Positions 39,115 to 47,505 of a DNA stretch of 64,000 bases are shown piece by piece. The notes beneath the pieces were generated by a model. It had not been told where the DNA came from, searched no databases, and saw only the letters and a program-made list of their open reading frames with translations. Origin of the DNA: Natrinema sp. DC36 (GTDB lineage Archaea; Halobacteriota; Halobacteria; Halobacteriales; Natrialbaceae). Position numbers and translations under genes: made by a program. Within the stretch, counting starts at the first letter, position 1. Every line of letters begins with the position of its first letter. The stretch covers positions 124,001 through 188,000 of the forward strand of contig NZ_CP084472.1 in NCBI RefSeq assembly GCF_020405225.1. Direction: 5' to 3'.

Positions 39115-40371
39115 ATGACGAACAGAAACCGACGATCGTTCGTGACGACCGTTGCAGCGGCTGGAACGCTCGGACTCTCCGGTTGTCTCTCGCAGTTGCG
39201 GGAGTGGCGTGGCGGCAATACCTCGTCGCCGGCGGAGTCGACGCCGAGCGGAGACGCCGATCAGCCGAGCGCCGACGGACTGCCCGAGCTCCCTGGTGAA
39301 TCGATCGATGACTTCGAGTCCCTCGACGACTGGATCGCGATGATCGACGGCGGCACCCTCGAGGCCGGGACTGACGATCCGTACGGCGGATCGCAGTCGG
39401 CTCGCCTCACCGCGAGCGAGGACACGGAGTACGCGGCAATCTACAAGGTGGTCGACGGGTTGGACCTGCGCAATTCGAACCTCTCGCTTGCCGTGAAGTT
39501 CACCGGCCGCGAGCAGCTCCGGCTCTCGCTCGAGTTATTCGCGCCGAACTCGCGGAACGCTCACGTGCTGCAGCGGACGCTCATCGGCCCGTCCGATCGG
39601 TGGGTTCGCGTCGATTTCGGCACCGGTCAGATCGAGGAGCAGCCGGATTTGACGGACGTCAGCGAGATTCGATTGACCGCCCGTCGGCGCGGTGACACGT
39701 CCGGCTCGATCGACTGCCAGGTCGACGATCTCCGCGTCGTCGACCGACCGGAGAGGGGTAACGTGATGCTCCTGTTCGATGGGATGCTCGAGAGCCACTA
39801 CACGGAGGTCTTCGATCGGATGGAGTCCTACGGGTACGCGGGCGTCGAAGCCGTCATGCCCGAAGCCATCGGTGAGGGAGAGCGACTCACGATCGACAGG
39901 CTCGAGGAACTGAGCGACGCGGGCTGGGACATGGCGGCTCGGCCGCGAACCGGCGCTCACTTTCTCCACGAGTATTCCCCCGAAGAGCAAGCGCGGATGA
40001 TCCGAGACACGAAGCTGTACCTCGAGAGCCGCGGCTTCGAGGACGGCGCGAAGCACTTCGTCACCCCGCGGAACGTGCTCAGCCCGACCGCTCGCGACCT
40101 CGTTGAGGAACACCATGAACAGGCGTTTCGGTTCGGCGGCGGTCCGAACGGGCTGGCGCTCACCGATCCCTACAACGTAGGATTCTTCGCCGGCGACGCC
40201 GGCAACGAAACGGAAACGTACATCGACTACGCCGCCGAGTACGGCCAGCTCGCGGTGTTGCAGTTCGATTACATCGGCGAGGACGGGATGAGCGTGCAGG
40301 CGTTCGCGGACCTGCTCGAGTATATCGACGAACAGAACGTGGATGTCGTTACTGCGACGGACCTGTTGTAG
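39115..40371 (+). CDS. Degenerate polysaccharide-deacetylase-like Tat lipoprotein
   Basis: 418 residues, same architecture as the gene at 34966: Tat signal with NRRSF and a lipobox Cys24, Ser/Asp linker, beta domain (about 65-210, ending CQVDDLRVVD), then a NodB-like domain. The metal site looks damaged. FDG at 221-223 replaces the WDDG of its paralogue, the HGTHD segment is replaced by ARPRTGAH, and LQFDY replaces NFHTF. It may therefore be a binding protein rather than an enzyme. A TATA-like box GTATAAG lies about 30 bases before the ATG. Its stop codon TAG falls inside the left end of MITE copy 3, so the C-terminus may have been set by that insertion. Confidence 0.75.
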   Translation: MTNRNRRSFVTTVAAAGTLGLSGCLSQLREWRGGNTSSPAESTPSGDADQPSADGLPELPGESIDDFESLDDWIAMIDGGTLEAGTDDPYGGSQSARLTASEDTEYAAIYKVVDGLDLRNSNLSLAVKFTGREQLRLSLELFAPNSRNAHVLQRTLIGPSDRWVRVDFGTGQIEEQPDLTDVSEIRLTARRRGDTSGSIDCQVDDLRVVDRPERGNVMLLFDGMLESHYTEVFDRMESYGYAGVEAVMPEAIGEGERLTIDRLEELSDAGWDMAARPRTGAHFLHEYSPEEQARMIRDTKLYLESRGFEDGAKHFVTPRNVLSPTARDLVEEHHEQAFRFGGGPNGLALTDPYNVGFFAGDAGNETETYIDYAAEYGQLAVLQFDYIGEDGMSVQAFADLLEYIDEQNVDVVTATDLL

Positions 40372-40580: not shown

Positions 40581-40730
40581 GCTGGTGTCTGACCGGTTGT
40601 GACGAATGACTGGCTGTGACGATGATGTGCCGATAGTATCGCTGTGGTGACCGAGGGCGTGACGGAGCCGTCTGCCGCTTCAGGGAGAACGTGCGGTTGT
40701 CGGAACAGTGTTCGGTAGCGGTCGGGGGTC

Positions 40731-41419
40731 GTGTTTAGTTTGTAGCATTGTGCCAGACGGCGAAGGCTTGGAGCCACGATTCGGCTGTTGATGGTTGTGC
40801 GTGACTGAAACAGTTTGAGAATGAGGAGGTACGTCGCTTTATCTCGCGGAAGACACGTTCCGCCGCGTTCCGATTTCCATGTTTTTCGTATCGAAAACGG
40901 AGCCCAGATCGACGGAGTGCAGTCTGGAGATGTTTCGCTCCATCAACGAGAAACACGGCATCATCAAGATCATGTTTCTCAGTGAGTTCGTGCAGGAACC
41001 GTTCTGTCAACGCAGTCGTAGTCGTCGAATACAGCCGTATATGGAGTATGTTGTTCGTTTCTGGATCGACAGCGGTGTACAGCCAATAGCGATGTTCGTT
41101 AAGTTGAATCACCGTCTCGTCAAGTGCGACGTGATTCGGTTCCTCGTCAACTGTCGGCTGTATATCGCATTTGTGAACCCAATCATGGACTGCTTTGCGA
41201 CTGCGCTCGACACCGAACCTCTCTAATTCTCGAACGGTATTCGAAAGCGATAATCCAGCAAGATGGAGTCGAATACCGAGCTCCATCAGCCGACGCGGTG
41301 TCCGTTCTCGCTCCACAAAATCCAAATCAATCCAGTCGCTACTACCGCTGAGGCGTGCGATTTCTGCCATGAACCAGCTGAAAATCAGCACGCCTCACTT
41401 TTCACGATTAACTAAACAC
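40731..41419 (-). mobile_element. IS6-type insertion sequence, copy 1
   Basis: About 690 bp, bounded by GTGTTTAGTT on the left and AACTAAACAC on the right, perfect inverted repeats. It holds one transposase gene on the minus strand. No eight-base target duplication was recognised at the edges. A second, decayed relative in opposite orientation lies at 43296-43982. Confidence 0.85.
40735..41370 (-). CDS. IS6-type DDE transposase, intact
   Basis: About 211 residues, usual for haloarchaeal IS6-family enzymes. A helix-turn-helix region (LAGLSLSNTVRELERFGVER, then KAVHDWVHKC) precedes the catalytic core. The three acidic residues are visible as HVALDETVIQL, AVFLVDGAKHLQTAL and the Glu in NRNAAERVFREIKRRT. 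The ATG at 41370 (MAEIARLSGSSDWIDLDFVE) is preferred to the upstream in-frame codon at 41391. The reading frame is unbroken, so the element could be active and might act on the decayed copy in trans. Confidence 0.9.
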   Translation of the reverse strand: MAEIARLSGSSDWIDLDFVERERTPRRLMELGIRLHLAGLSLSNTVRELERFGVERSRKAVHDWVHKCDIQPTVDEEPNHVALDETVIQLNEHRYWLYTAVDPETNNILHIRLYSTTTTALTERFLHELTEKHDLDDAVFLVDGAKHLQTALRRSGLRFRYEKHGNRNAAERVFREIKRRTSSFSNCFSHAQPSTAESWLQAFAVWHNATN

Positions 41420-41479
41420 GGCCGTTCCAGCGGCGTTGTCTGGTTAAGCCAGTGTGTGAACCCTAATCCATATTAATCA

Positions 41480-41842
41480 TCAGGAATCGCGAACAGTCTC
41501 CCAGTCATGCTGGGAGATATTTACCAAGGTGCTCGCGGTCCACCACAAGGAAACGAGAGCGATCATAATGCCAAACCAGGCAGGGATACTTGCGCTTACA
41601 AACATAATAGCACCTCCCGCGATTCCGAAGATGAATACGCCCAACTTCACATACCGTCTATCACCATTAATGATATCGACTGTTGCGAAGGCAAGGGAAA
41701 CTAGCGCTACGACAACGGGACCGATTATTGATATATACAGGTCTCCTGTAGCCAGATACAGAACAAGCGAGACGACCGGTAGGACAACTATTTCCCGAAC
41801 CCCGATCCGCTCAATCAGTTTTCTAAAGTCGGGATCTACCAT
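41480..41842 (-). CDS. Small four-helix membrane protein, candidate halocin immunity or export factor
   Basis: 120 residues from the ATG at 41842 (MVDPDFRKLIERIGVRE). Four hydrophobic segments follow: IVVLPVVSLVLYLATGDL, YISIIGPVVVALVSLAFATV, YVKLGVFIFGIAGGAIMFV and WFGIMIALVSLWWTASTLV. The frame extends upstream to 42028, but that part overlaps the precursor gene and lacks protein character. A TATA-like GATTTATTACT (minus strand, 41864-41874) is about 22-32 bases upstream and fits a leaderless transcript from this ATG. Base composition is more AT-rich than the chromosome. Being directly downstream of a halocin-like gene makes an immunity or transport role attractive, but no homology was recognised. 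Confidence 0.6.
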   Translation of the reverse strand: MVDPDFRKLIERIGVREIVVLPVVSLVLYLATGDLYISIIGPVVVALVSLAFATVDIINGDRRYVKLGVFIFGIAGGAIMFVSASIPAWFGIMIALVSLWWTASTLVNISQHDWETVRDS

Positions 41843-41979: not shown

Positions 41980-42999
41980 TCAGCAGCCGAACGCGCCTGC
42001 ACAGATAATTGCTGGCGACGCTGCACAAAGTGCTGCTCCCTGCACGGTAGTTACGTATCTACAAAAGACTCCGCAAGCCCCCGCTAGCACTGGATAAGTT
42101 GTAGCGTATGGGACACACCGGGTTGCACAACCGTAGAAGCCAAGTTGCGACGTGCCAGCACATATCGCAGGAATGACCGCAGTACAGGTGGTACAGCCGA
42201 TCCTACCGGCTAGACCCTGTGTGCTAACACCAGTATCATTTTGATAGCTCTCAACCACCTCAGGCGTGAGGCTAGATGGCAATTCGGAACTCTGGCTACT
42301 TACGGTACCAACCGGTTCAGTAGTATTGGGTAGTTGTCCCTGCTGTTGGTTCTGGACGACTTCATTACCCTCCTCGTAGCTGAAGAGTTCATACTGGACC
42401 TCGTCATTTGACTCGGCAGTCTTGTGTGTCCTATCTTTGGATCGACTCAAACTGGCACTATCAGAGGAATTACCGTGAAGAGTAACTGCTCCGGCAGAGA
42501 CAGGAATTCTACCGGTTCCATCATTGGCCTGAACCGAATCGCCTGAGTTGACTCCAGACTCCGGTTCGTCGACAACACCTGCCACTAGCACACCGAGATC
42601 TTGAGGAGTAGTGTTCTCCCATGGGGTACTGGTATCTTTCAGGAGTGAAACGGCGAGCGAGGGATTGAGTGCGTTGACGTCTTCATTATTCGTCGTAAGT
42701 TCGAGCGACAGTGGGAGCACATTTTCCACCGTCCGTCCTGTACTATCACTTATTTTTTGGCGAAGATCGCGAAGAGCGTTAGACTCCTTTATCACGGAGA
42801 CGTCGCCAAGAGCCGCTGGGCGTTTCTTGAAGCGTGAGTTGGCAAACTCTTGATCAGCATTCCCAGATGCCTCCCAATCCAACTGCGCTGAGCCAGTGCC
42901 GACAGCCCCGGTCAGAGTAGCGCCTCCGATGGCCATTCCCCGGAGGACTTTTCGTCGATTTATACCGTTTCCGTACGTGGTATAGTCATCGTATACCAT
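41980..42999 (-). CDS. Halocin C8-like microhalocin precursor (Tat-exported, ten-cysteine C-terminal domain)
   Basis: 339-residue precursor. A Tat signal with Arg15-Arg16 (INRRKVLRGMAIGGATLTG) ends near Ala38. A hydrophilic, cysteine-free middle part (39 to about 265) follows. The last 74 residues (266-339) carry ten cysteines at 269, 272, 280, 291, 295, 309, 313, 325, 333 and 339, starting GCTTC and ending GAFGC, amid Gly/Ala-rich hydrophobic stretches. Known halocin C8 is a 76-residue, ten-cysteine peptide starting with a GCSAC motif, cut from a Tat-exported proprotein whose N-terminal part acts as immunity protein. The architecture matches closely. Processing near residue 260-266 is inferred. 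The frame opens with a TTG at 43002, but ATG 42999 fits the TATA box. Confidence 0.85.
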   Translation of the reverse strand: MVYDDYTTYGNGINRRKVLRGMAIGGATLTGAVGTGSAQLDWEASGNADQEFANSRFKKRPAALGDVSVIKESNALRDLRQKISDSTGRTVENVLPLSLELTTNNEDVNALNPSLAVSLLKDTSTPWENTTPQDLGVLVAGVVDEPESGVNSGDSVQANDGTGRIPVSAGAVTLHGNSSDSASLSRSKDRTHKTAESNDEVQYELFSYEEGNEVVQNQQQGQLPNTTEPVGTVSSQSSELPSSLTPEVVESYQNDTGVSTQGLAGRIGCTTCTAVIPAICAGTSQLGFYGCATRCVPYATTYPVLAGACGVFCRYVTTVQGAALCAASPAIICAGAFGC

Positions 43000-43020: not shown

Positions 43021-43030
43021 GATATAAAAA
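43021..43030 (-). promoter_or_regulatory. TATA box of the halocin-like gene
   Basis: TTTTTATATC on the minus strand, 22-31 bases before the ATG at 42999; fits a leaderless transcript. A second AT-rich stretch, ATTATAAATTA, lies nearer the start, at about 43006-43016. Confidence 0.55.
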
Positions 43031-43031
43031 A

Positions 43032-43295
43032 CTAACTCCTGTATCTAATTCTACTTAATAGATTAGAATCGAGAACATCGTCTCCCACCGTCGCTGTGGA
43101 TTTCTCTGCCGACACGAGACTGTCTTGTTGAATCCAGTGGCGACGTAACGGTGGCTGTTTGATGGGTTGTTCGAGGGTGTAGACTGCGGAGATGAACACC
43201 AACTCACAAAATCCTCGGTACAAGTACGTGGCCTGACAGCGAATCCATACCAGCGCTTGATGGCTGAGAAGGCGGTTTCAATTATCCAGCGGGCG
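43032..43295 (-). pseudogene. Remnant of a second transposase (IS4/IS5-like C-terminus), frameshifted and truncated
   Basis: Read on the minus strand, RWIIETAFSAIKRWYGFAVR leads, after one frameshift near 43223-43230, into YRGFCELVFISAVYTLEQP. This W-E-F-K pattern is the C-terminal end of DDE transposases of the IS4/IS5 type common in haloarchaea. The N-terminal part is missing at the junction with IS6-type copy 2, which seems to have inserted into the older element. There is no full frame, so it is a dead fragment. The exact IS family is uncertain. Confidence 0.65.
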
Positions 43296-43982
43296 CTGTT
43301 TCGTTAAGCGTGAAAAGTGAGGCGGTACGATTTTATGGTGTCCATGCCACAAATCGACCGCCTCAGCGGGTGTAGCGACTGGATTGATTTGGGTTTTGTG
43401 GAGGGAGAGCGGACACCGCGTCAGCTGATGGAACTCGGTATTTGACTCCATCTTGCTGGCCTATCGCTTTCGAATACCGTTCGAGAATTAGAGAAATTCG
43501 GCGTCGATCGCTGTCGAAAGACAGTCCACGATTGGGTTTACAAATGCGATCTACAGCCGGCAGTTGACGAGAAACCGAATCACGTCGCGCTTGACGAGAC
43601 GGTGATTCAACTTGACGAACATCGCTATTGGCTGTACACTGCTATCGATCCAGAAACAAACAATATACTCCATATACGGCTGTATTCGACGATCACGATC
43701 GTGTTGACAGAACGGTTCCTGCGGGAGCCCACCGAGAAACATGACCTTGACGATGCTGTGTTTCTCGTTGAGGGAGCAAAACATCTCCAGACTGCACTCC
43801 GCCGATCTGGACTCCGATTTCAATACGAAAAACATGGAAATCGGAACAGTATTGAACGTGGTTTCTGTGAGATAAAACGTCGTCTATCTTCGTTATCAAC
43901 AGTTTTAGCCACGCACAACCGTCGACAGCAGAATCGTGGCTCCAAGCCTTCGCCGTCTGGCACAATGCTACAAACGAAACAC
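43296..43982 (+). mobile_element. IS6-type insertion sequence, copy 2 (decayed)
   Basis: About 687 bp, from CTGTTTCGTTAAGCG to GTTTCGT-type sequence read on the opposite strand (AACGAAACAC). It is similar in sequence and length to copy 1 and lies in the opposite orientation, so the pair encloses the halocin-like cassette. Its transposase is broken. Confidence 0.8.
43344..43975 (+). pseudogene. IS6-type transposase pseudogene
   Basis: Same protein as the intact copy: starts MPQIDRLSGCSDWIDLGFVE and keeps HVALDETVIQLDEHRYWLYT and the AVFLVEGAKH region. Damage is visible. A TGA at 43443-43445 replaces the Arg codon of ELGIRLHLAG. The second catalytic segment reads VEGAKH where the intact copy has VDGAKH. 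A one-base frameshift after RRLSSLS shifts the C-terminus out of frame; the expected ending SHAQPSTAESWLQAFAVWHN is still readable in another frame. The normal stop codon is also lost (CTAA to CGAA). Confidence 0.85.
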
Positions 43983-44139
43983 GACCGTTCCAGCCGAATG
44001 GAGGACGGACGGTTCCGAACCACGGCCGTCGGTCGTCGTTCGAGGCATCGGGTATCGTCTCGCGATGCCGAGTGAGCCGAGACCGATCCGCACCCGGCTG
44101 CTGTGACGCGCAACGTTTATCACACGTCTGTCAGTAGTA

Positions 44140-44621: not shown

Positions 44622-45641
44622 TCAGTGAGTCGAAATGGCGGCTGTCGACCGGCTCGAGGCGAAGATCGCGAGCAGGTAGCAGACGATGGCGACGACGACG
44701 ATCGAGCCGCCGGTGGGCAGCCCCTGGGAAATCGAGAAGACGAAGCCGCCGATGACCGCCACCTGTCCGAAAAGGATCGAACAGTAGAGCGTCTCCCGGA
44801 AGCTGTGGGCGATCTGCGTGGCCGCGGCGACGGGGACGACGAGCATCGCGGCGACGAGGATCACGCCGAGGATCTGCATCGCGCCGACGACGACGACGGC
44901 CGTCATCACGATCAGCAGGGTGTTGTACCACGTCACGTTGAGCCGCGCGACGCGGGCGGCCTGTTCGTCGAAGGTGATGAACAGGAGTTGCTTGTAGGTC
45001 GCGACGGTGACGACCACGACGACCACGGTGATGACGGCCATCAGCCGCGCCCCCGAGGGGGTGACGACCGAGATGTTCCCGAATAGATAGCCCTCGACGT
45101 TGAACCCGGTCATGCCGCGGCCGTAGCTGATGATCAGCGTGCCGACGGCGAAGCTGCCGGTCAGCATGATCGCGATCGGCACGTCGCCGTAGGTGTCGGT
45201 CCGTTCGGTCAGCCACTGGACCCCGAGCGCACCGAGGACGCCAACGATCAGCGCGACGAGCATCAGCGAGCCGTTCCAGCCGGTCGTCGCGCTCACAACC
45301 AAGCCGACCGCGACGCCGGCGAAGGCCGTGTGGGCCAGCGTCTCGCCGATTAGCGCCATCTCGCGGTGGACGAGATAGGTCCCGACCAGCGGCGCGACGA
45401 CCCCGATCAGGATTCCGGTCGCGATCGAGCGCCACATGAACGGATGGTAGAAGACGTTCGTCCCGAGGTAGTGATCCGCCCACCAGCCCGCAATTCGGGC
45501 CTGTTCGTACAGCACGCCGACGACGGGCGCTTCGCGCAACGCGTCGATAGTTAGCAGGCCGACCATCGCGACCGCGAGGATCGCGGTGAGGCCGATTCCG
45601 ACGTGCTCGAGCCGACGACGGAGAGAGTGATGCTGCGTCAT
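44622..45641 (-). CDS. znuB: Zinc/manganese ABC transporter permease (ZnuB family)
   Basis: Integral membrane permease of the metal ABC-3 family, 339 aa with about eight to nine helices. Typical segments: GILIGVVAPLVGTYLVHREM, ALIGETLAHTAFAGVAVGLV (a family signature) and MLVVPVAAATQIAHSFRETL near 240-260. It would form the channel through which the cluster A-9 binding protein delivers Zn2+ or Mn2+. It is the last gene of the znuA-znuC-znuB operon, with a 5-bp gap to znuC. The C-terminal tail is Ser/Ala/Thr-rich. Confidence 0.92.
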   Translation of the reverse strand: MTQHHSLRRRLEHVGIGLTAILAVAMVGLLTIDALREAPVVGVLYEQARIAGWWADHYLGTNVFYHPFMWRSIATGILIGVVAPLVGTYLVHREMALIGETLAHTAFAGVAVGLVVSATTGWNGSLMLVALIVGVLGALGVQWLTERTDTYGDVPIAIMLTGSFAVGTLIISYGRGMTGFNVEGYLFGNISVVTPSGARLMAVITVVVVVVTVATYKQLLFITFDEQAARVARLNVTWYNTLLIVMTAVVVVGAMQILGVILVAAMLVVPVAAATQIAHSFRETLYCSILFGQVAVIGGFVFSISQGLPTGGSIVVVAIVCYLLAIFASSRSTAAISTH

Positions 45642-45646
45642 CGATA

Positions 45647-46384
45647 TCAGTGGTGGTGATGGACGACCTGGCCCGTCGCGCCGTAGGCCTCGGTCAGGGC
45701 GTCGCTCTCGACGAACGATTCGGTGTCGCCGTGGTGGTAGAGTTCGGTGTTGATGCAGGCGATCCGGCTCGCCCGGTCCGTGACGACGCCGATGTCGTGT
45801 TCGATCAGGATGATCGCGATCCCCGACTCGTTGAGTGACTCGAGCAACTGGTAGAACGCGTCGCGGGACTCGGCGTCGACGCCGACGGTCGGCTCGTCGA
45901 GCGCCAGGAGGTCGGCCTCGGAGGCCAGCGCGCGTGCGATGTAGGCCCGCTGGCGCTGGCCGCCGGAGAGCTGATTGACCTGTCGGTCCGCGAGGTCGGT
46001 AATGGCGACCGTCTGGAGGGCCTCGTCGACGGCCGCGTGATCCTCGTCGGTCAGTCGGCTGTGGCCCGCGTGGGCGAACCGGCCCATGGTGACAACCTCG
46101 CGGACGGTGACCGGCATCGAGCCGCCACGATTGGTCGCCTGCTGGGAGACGTAGCCGATCCGCTCGCCGTCGTCGAATTCGTCGACGGGTTCGTCGAACA
46201 GTTCGATCGAGCCGCTGTCGGGACTGCGCAGTCCGAGCATGAGATGCAGGAGGGTGGTCTTGCCCGAGCCGTTGGGGCCGATCAGCCCGAGGAAGTCTCC
46301 CTCTTCGACCCGAAGTGAGACGTCCTTCACCGCCGGCTGCTCGCCGTAGGCGAACGTCACGTTTTCGAGGTCGACGACGGTCAC
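45647..46384 (-). CDS. znuC: Zinc/manganese ABC transporter ATP-binding protein
   Basis: ATPase of the metal uptake system, 245 aa. Walker A is LGLIGPNGSGKTTLLHLML, the Q-loop is in IGYVSQQATNRGG, the signature is VNQLSGGQRQRAYIARAL and Walker B is ADLLALDEPTVGVD; IAIILIEHDIGVVTD has the switch histidine. The end is a run of histidines (VVHHHH), which may help bind metal. The GTG at 46384 overlaps the znuA stop (GTGA), so the frame back to 46465 is not used. Middle gene of the operon. Confidence 0.93.
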   Translation of the reverse strand: MTVVDLENVTFAYGEQPAVKDVSLRVEEGDFLGLIGPNGSGKTTLLHLMLGLRSPDSGSIELFDEPVDEFDDGERIGYVSQQATNRGGSMPVTVREVVTMGRFAHAGHSRLTDEDHAAVDEALQTVAITDLADRQVNQLSGGQRQRAYIARALASEADLLALDEPTVGVDAESRDAFYQLLESLNESGIAIILIEHDIGVVTDRASRIACINTELYHHGDTESFVESDALTEAYGATGQVVHHHH

Positions 46385-47505
46385 TGTGCGTCTAGTGCCT
46401 TTTTGAACGCGGGGATGTTTATCTCTTCCATCTGCTCGACGTAGCCCCAGTCCCGCTCTTGCCACCTCGCGAGAGTCCCCGAGAGGTGCGTGATCGGCAT
46501 CGCGTCGGTCGCGTCGGTGTCCCGGAGGATGGTGTTGACCAGCGGCGGGTACTCGCCTTCGCGGTCCTCGAAGGGACTGTAGAGGATCGTCTCGATTCCC
46601 TCTTCGTCGACCAGCTCGAGCGTCGCCGAGATATCGTTATTACTCGGTTCCTGTGGGCTGACACCGGTCGGCGTGTGGATTTCGAACCCGTATCGCTCCT
46701 GTAGGTAGGTAAACGAGTCGTGACCGGCGAAGACGGCGATCTGACGGTCGGCCGCGTCGATTAGGTCTTCGAATCGCTGGTCGAGGGCTGCGAGGTCGTC
46801 CGTGTACGCGGCGGCGTTTTCCTCGTAAGTTCCGGCGTTGTCCGGGTCGGCGTCGGCGAGTCCCGACGCGATGGTATCGACGATATCCTGCGCGAGCACG
46901 GGGTCGAGCCAGACGTGGGGATCCACCGACGACCGGTCGTGATCGTGGCCGTCGTGGGTCTCGTCGCCGTGGCCGTCCTCACTGTCGTGAGAGTGGTCGC
47001 TGTGATCGCCTTCGTCCTCGTGGGAATCATTGCTGTGATCGCCTTCGTCCTCGTGGGAATCATTGCTGTGATCGTTCTCGGTCTCGTGAGCGTGGGTACC
47101 GGCGTCGGCCTCGTGGTCCCAGCCGAGCAGTTCCCCCTCGAGCCCCTCGAGCCCGTCGATCACGGCCACGGTATCGTAGTCGGTCTCGAGCGTCGCCGCG
47201 ATGTCCTGTGCCCACGAAAATTCCGGCGTGTCGAAGTAGACGAACGCGCCGGCGTCGGCGATGTCTCGAGTCAGATCGCCGCTTGGCGACCAGCCGTGGC
47301 CGGGCTGGCCGGTTCCGACCGGGTTCTCGAAATCGACCGCGTCGCCGCTCACCTGCTGGCCCCAGTCCCAGAGGGTAAAGAAGGCGGCGTAGCCGGTCTC
47401 GAGGTCCGCGTTCGTCGCGTCGATGTCGTCGAGACAGCCGGCGACGGTACCGGCGGCGAGTGCGCTGGCTCCCCCTCTGAGCAGCGCGCGTCGTGTCGGG
47501 TTCAT
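46381..47505 (-). CDS. znuA: Zinc/manganese ABC transporter solute-binding lipoprotein with histidine-rich loop
   Basis: Cluster A-9 metal-binding protein, 374 aa. Tat signal TRRALLRGG with lipobox Cys24 (TVAGC). The family His-rich acidic loop (about 145-200) contains repeats of HSNDSHEDEGD and many HDH or HSH pairs, then VDPHVWLDPVLAQDIV, where the His is a metal ligand. Later ligand regions are VFAGHDSFTYLQERYGFEI and the Glu/Asp near ILYSPFEDREGEYP. It captures Zn2+ or Mn2+ at the cell surface. The operon order znuA-znuC-znuB is compact. A TATA-like box (TTATACTCC on the minus strand, about 47526-47534) suits a leaderless start. Confidence 0.93.
   Translation of the reverse strand: MNPTRRALLRGGASALAAGTVAGCLDDIDATNADLETGYAAFFTLWDWGQQVSGDAVDFENPVGTGQPGHGWSPSGDLTRDIADAGAFVYFDTPEFSWAQDIAATLETDYDTVAVIDGLEGLEGELLGWDHEADAGTHAHETENDHSNDSHEDEGDHSNDSHEDEGDHSDHSHDSEDGHGDETHDGHDHDRSSVDPHVWLDPVLAQDIVDTIASGLADADPDNAGTYEENAAAYTDDLAALDQRFEDLIDAADRQIAVFAGHDSFTYLQERYGFEIHTPTGVSPQEPSNNDISATLELVDEEGIETILYSPFEDREGEYPPLVNTILRDTDATDAMPITHLSGTLARWQERDWGYVEQMEEINIPAFKKALDAQ
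47001..47066. repeat. Perfect 33-bp tandem duplication inside znuA
   Basis: Two identical 33-base units (47001-47033 and 47034-47066) begin TGTGATCGCCTTCGTCCTCG. They encode an exact doubling of an 11-residue His/Asp unit in the metal-binding loop. Confidence 0.95.

Follow-up and report, generated by a model that had tools for sequence, protein, structure and literature searches.

The window analysed here, a 64,000-nucleotide stretch of the Natrinema sp. DC36 contig NZ_CP084472.1, carries on its minus strand an open reading frame (41980-42999; ATG at 42999, stop codon at 41980-41982) that encodes a halocin C8-like precursor of 339 residues, or of 340 if translation begins at a TTG located three bases further out. 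As read from the sequence, the product opens with a Tat-type signal region (residues 1-39; 42883-42999, minus strand), in which the twin-arginine motif N-R-R-K-V-L occupies residues 14-19 and cleavage might, at a guess, take place after about GSA; this RR motif is common to nearly all intact relatives of the precursor. The signal is followed by a pro-region devoid of cysteine (residues 40-265; 42205-42882, minus strand) and by a presumed mature peptide (residues 266-339; 41983-42204, minus strand) that has a net charge of +3 and presents ten cysteines with the spacing CX2CX7CX10CX3CX13CX3CX11CX7CX5C. These cysteines lie at precursor positions 269, 272, 280, 291, 295, 309, 313, 325, 333 and 339, with none in residues 1-268 and all ten within the last 71 residues, an outcome for which ten randomly scattered cysteines would have a chance of 1e-7. 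A putative TATA-like box (TTTATATC; 43021-43028, minus strand) can be read 22-29 bases upstream of the ATG. The Tat-type start, cysteine-free middle and ten-cysteine end described previously from the sequence are hence confirmed exactly at this location; the ten-cysteine end beginning with GCTTC is likewise present, but it spans 72 residues, and reaches the 74 given in that preliminary description only if counted from R266 (RIGCTTC).

Two genomes from another family (G152 and G114) encode orthologs of the precursor (L133 and L134), with 61-62% protein identity overall, 81-82% in the cysteine domain and 56-57% in the pro-region. The corresponding dN/dS values are 0.25 for the pro-part and 0.07 for the cysteine domain, which is the part of the precursor under the strongest constraint. 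Because the open reading frame is conserved as a protein in these two genomes, with low dN/dS, sequence conservation identifies it as a real gene.

Directly downstream of the precursor, on the same strand (41480-41842), lies a gene coding for a 120-residue protein with four predicted transmembrane (TM) helices, here considered a candidate immunity protein, for which Pfam yielded no match. Both genes sit in an islet of low GC content (0.49, compared with 0.63 in the window) that is flanked by two IS copies in inverted orientation. The left copy (40727-41423, minus strand) contains an IS240-like DDE transposase open reading frame (40735-41391; PF13610, E 1.7e-7), and the right copy (43292-43986, plus strand), which is 87-92% like the left one, harbors a transposase interrupted by a stop codon and a frame break that are visible in the alignment. 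Beside the left copy, a lipoprotein-like open reading frame (39115-40371, plus strand) shows a weak polysaccharide deacetylase match, and the islet is adjoined on its other flank (44622-47505, minus strand) by genes that, by open reading frame reading only, probably encode a zinc-type ABC importer composed of an ATPase, a permease and a binding protein, the last of which bears a long stretch rich in His, Asp and Glu. Clear homologs of the four-TM protein occur in five of the 392 genomes surveyed: that of the window, the two with orthologous precursors, directly behind which they are encoded (55-59% identity; dN/dS 0.23 for the downstream gene), and two others (G276 and G392) in which the gene is an orphan. 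DNA similarity between the window and G152 or G114 is limited to the precursor and four-TM genes, and the chromosomal genes around the pair there are unrelated. On this evidence, the pair most likely constitutes a mobile two-gene cassette.

The relationship of the precursor to halocin C8, which had been proposed from the cysteine pattern and for which a search with the halocin C8 domain model had been suggested, is supported at the level of the family. The NCBIfam model for the halocin C8-like domain (TIGR04449) aligns with the whole precursor over its full length (1-69 of 69), but with a score (10.5 bits) under the curated cut-off of 24, and the cysteine domain alone, at 15.3 bits, also falls below this value, which is a software threshold and not a biological property. 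The family set, of 87 domain sequences (67 after removal of redundancy), displays two cysteine frames, termed here type A (the spacing of halocin C8) and type B (that of the window). A type B profile built without the window member assigns the precursor 35.9 bits (E 8e-9), with a maximum of 24.5 bits among 500 cysteine-preserving shuffles; a profile derived from type A alone does not recover it. Moreover, type B relatives that score above the TIGR04449 cut-off connect the window precursor to the family, and the type A and type B domain profiles match each other with a probability of 94.6%. Since the precursor matches the type B profile, its shuffled versions score lower and the two profiles match each other, these sequence comparisons make it a divergent member of the halocin C8-like family, and not halocin C8 proper. 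All-against-all BLAST scores, obtained without composition correction, play no part in this placement.

Like ProC8, the window protein combines a Tat-type precursor and a cysteine-poor middle with a C-terminal peptide of about 75 residues and ten cysteines. The halocin C8-like reading thus stands as regards family membership, by way of the type B profile, but not as regards the cysteine frame, in which C4 and C7 are shifted: in halocin C8, the sequence of which we take to be the tail of the type A locus L053, both lie eight residues from C5/C6, whereas in the window peptide the distances are four and four. The net charge of the mature peptide differs as well (+3, versus -4 for halocin C8). Other type B proteins, such as L043, L102 and L057, share the cysteine frame of the window and have a related pro-region. 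L102 resides on Haloterrigena turkmenica plasmid NC_013745.1, where it is annotated as a halocin C8-like domain-containing protein, and L057 belongs to Halorubrum trapanicum.

Members of the family are detected (E <= 0.01) in 59 of the 392 genomes of the order (about 15%), with a patchy distribution; a broader tally of 283 genomes was rejected as a halocin count, most of its low-scoring matches covering only the Tat region. The genome of the window contains two further family genes, one scoring 35.2 bits, above the TIGR04449 cut-off, and the other 23.3 bits, narrowly short of it. One paralog in this genome (L043; G000:C1:3209650-3210513) is of type B, with a bPH_2 protein and a small TM gene in convergent orientation close by, and another (L044; G000:C2:47372-47602), on contig 2, is of type A and is followed by a 57-residue, two-TM open reading frame. 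In three further cases (L093, L097 and L111), a halocin C8-like domain without C3 and C8 closes a much longer Tat-type protein of about 680-720 residues, so that large secreted proteins, too, employ this domain as their final part. Viral contigs scanned with several family queries contained no relative; in tblastn against plasmids, the window protein found no match, and its ortholog recovered two proteins annotated as halocin C8-like. A genome contig scan gave a match in Haloterrigena salina only, and Rfam, PADLOC and PHROGs gave no relevant match. The HFX_0892 precursor-protease system was considered as a model for the locus and rejected, its active part being N-terminal and its anatomy different (PMC12893001).

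The complete ten-cysteine frame is present in 49 of the 67 non-redundant domains. All 16 members with eight cysteines have lost a joint pair, either C5 and C6 (four members), C1 and C10 (six) or C3 and C8 (six), though two of these losses correspond to single clades in the type B tree and the independent events are accordingly few. Only two of the 67 fall outside this pairing scheme: the first carries an additional cysteine, and the second, from a truncated gene, also lacks C4. In addition, C4 and C7 shift jointly, being located eight residues from C5/C6 in every type A domain and four in 15 of the 17 of type B. Because cysteines are lost as the pairs C1-C10, C3-C8 and C5-C6, and because C4 and C7 shift together, the simplest reading would be a helical hairpin braced by a ladder of five nested disulfides (1-10, 2-9, 3-8, 4-7 and 5-6), in which pair 2-9 is assigned by elimination. 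Type B is a cysteine frame distinct from that of halocin C8, and the simplest account of the difference is that its 4-7 rung would have moved by one helical turn, nearer to C5/C6.

Profile searches and a modest AlphaFold model point weakly to a saposin-like fold for such a laddered peptide. With the type A profile, nothing in the PDB is matched up to E 10 except chains of saposin A (E 0.16-0.44), on which C1, C2, C6, C9 and C10 align with saposin cysteines, and these matches are gone when the non-cysteine columns of the profile are shuffled; the type B profile has no match in the PDB. An AlphaFold model of residues 262-339, generated from two input sequences, presents five helices (pLDDT 74.8, pTM 0.58), and its best structural alignment is with the saposin-like protein Na-SLP-1 (Z 6.7, rmsd 2.6, 74 of 78 residues), the next one reaching Z 3.7. 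For helical bundles, Z scores under about 13 are weak. For the disulfide fold, previously put forward as a check on the halocin reading, these results lend weak support: the five-helix model lies nearest to Na-SLP-1, but Foldseek returned no match to it under E 6.9, nor anything useful from the PDB and viral models. The full-length precursor was modelled with a pLDDT of 33.6, and the structural alignments obtained with that model, none above Z 3.8, carry no meaning. The Pfam models SapB_1 and SapB_2 do not match the window, and SapB models applied to 54 genomes with halocin-like genes gave nothing over the cut-off and found the halocin genes no better than noise. The window peptide resembles saposin A and Na-SLP-1 in a CX2C near the start, a CX5C near the end, the predicted nesting of its disulfides and the five helices of its model, and differs from saposin-like proteins in having two extra predicted disulfides and no Pfam SapB match above noise. 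We consider the odds of a saposin-like fold to be about even, and do not claim common descent with saposins, given that the type B profile lacks a PDB match and that the haloarchaeal SapB matches look like noise. Several leaderless or circular bacteriocins (aureocin A53, lacticin Q and enterocin AS-48) have been described as saposin-like, helical and membrane-active (PMC7559574). They have no Tat precursor, and the comparison with them is one of description, not of sequence. Searches of open-access literature brought up neither a structure nor a disulfide map of halocin C8, nor any connection between it and saposins.

The fate of the four-TM gene in genomes where the peptide has been lost is informative as to its role. 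At the G276 locus (L176 1100-1836), what is left of a window-type precursor is a broken C-terminal piece, with the intact four-TM gene some 270 bases beyond it, and in G392 (Haloterrigena salina) the gene adjoins a transposase-like open reading frame, with no precursor. Because these two orphans differ from each other with a dN/dS of 0.27, the four-TM protein appears to be retained under purifying selection when the peptide is lost, as expected for an immunity protein. A second case of retention involves an intact small TM gene of G392 next to a decayed halocin fragment of the L047 type (L169 4515-4959); this convergent gene has a counterpart adjoining L047 itself. Across the family, a small same-strand TM gene lies behind the halocin-like gene in 35 of 76 loci, as opposed to 22 of 224 controls (p 7e-11), TM genes being counted by a simple hydropathy rule on open reading frames without gene calling. 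Such a gene is absent behind the precursor in 10 of 20 type B loci and in all six canonical halocin C8-type loci, the latter fitting the published one-gene immunity of ProC8/HalI. Among type B loci in general, the neighbouring membrane proteins vary from one locus to another. Separate membrane immunity proteins would thus seem to be common in the family, whereas halocin C8 makes do with one gene. Membrane proteins of the bPH_2 type, which occur near two type B relatives (L043 and L102), are also among the varied membrane proteins carried by leaderless bacteriocin loci (PMC7332713, PMC11580447), although the immunity candidate of the window is not itself of this type.

The explanation that we favour, with reasonable if not full confidence, is that the locus represents a mobile bacteriocin-immunity pair, comprising a Tat-exported precursor, a laddered membrane-active peptide and a protective four-TM protein. 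Its elements computed directly are the gene, its family relation, the cysteine frame, the paired losses, the gene pair, the retained immunity-like genes and the IS flanks. By analogy with ProC8, the precursor would exit through the Tat pathway and its pro-region would be removed outside the cell, releasing a peptide that has roughly 74 residues and is very hydrophobic and weakly basic. Five nested disulfides would staple this peptide into a helical hairpin, possibly with a saposin-like fold, allowing it to damage the membranes of related haloarchaea, its presumed target. The four-TM protein, residing in the membrane of the producer, would protect it and replace the built-in HalI immunity.

The main alternative to this arrangement concerns the seat of immunity. 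ProC8 is known to yield both HalI and halocin C8 (PMC11509114), and the middle part of the window precursor had been singled out as the natural place for a similar function, in which case the four-TM protein would have a role in export or processing or be a chance neighbour. A stepwise chain of pro-region similarity does lead from the HalI group to other type A members (98%), from these to the rest of type B (91%) and from there to the window group (98.8%), but the direct match between window-group and HalI-type pro-regions has a probability of only 0.1%. The four-TM gene, moreover, moves with the precursor between families, a helper in export or processing would not be expected to persist where the precursor is broken or absent, and the six canonical halocin C8-type loci do without such a downstream gene. 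Together with the conservation of a separate four-TM protein downstream, the lack of direct similarity to HalI speaks against the built-in immunity formerly suggested for the middle part; the comparison makes it more likely that immunity lies outside the precursor, in the four-TM protein, and leaves the alternative improbable.

Slightly less probable still is that the product is a secreted cysteine-rich protein without antimicrobial function, such as a signal or surface peptide, as might be argued from the weak family match of the window member and from type B members being without known activity; set against this are the relation to halocin C8 via intermediates, the patchy distribution of the family and the combination of mobility with a linked, separately retained membrane protein, all usual signs of a bacteriocin locus. 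The position between two inverted IS copies, one of them interrupted, and the low GC content would also befit a decaying or silent insert, but both open reading frames are intact, a TATA-like box is present and comparison with the orthologs gives a low dN/dS for the mature part and the downstream gene alike, which makes decay very improbable. The bacteriocin-immunity pair accordingly remains our preferred reading of the locus.

The halocin C8-like family was already known, and the window gene is a variant of it; what is new here is the proposed two-gene cassette of peptide and immunity protein, the type B frame together with the disulfide pattern predicted from it, and a saposin-like reading of the family as a whole. 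In its broadest form, to which we would give somewhat less than even chances, this reading tentatively regards the family as disulfide-laddered, saposin-like, membrane-active archaeal peptides that parallel eukaryotic effectors and bacterial bacteriocins, with type B sliding one rung by one turn and swapping built-in immunity for a four-TM protein in a mobile two-gene cassette. The family comparison yields concrete predictions for the disulfide map and structure of halocin C8, and the window offers a defined pair of peptide and putative immunity protein, for which there are orthologs as well as genomes that naturally carry the immunity-like gene alone. Finally, larger membrane proteins are encoded downstream of the precursor at two other loci of the family, L155 (3369-4040) and L107; these proteins, of 223 and about 240 residues, respectively, present TM helices followed by an apparent winged-helix domain, with weak TrmB/HTH matches in the case of L155.
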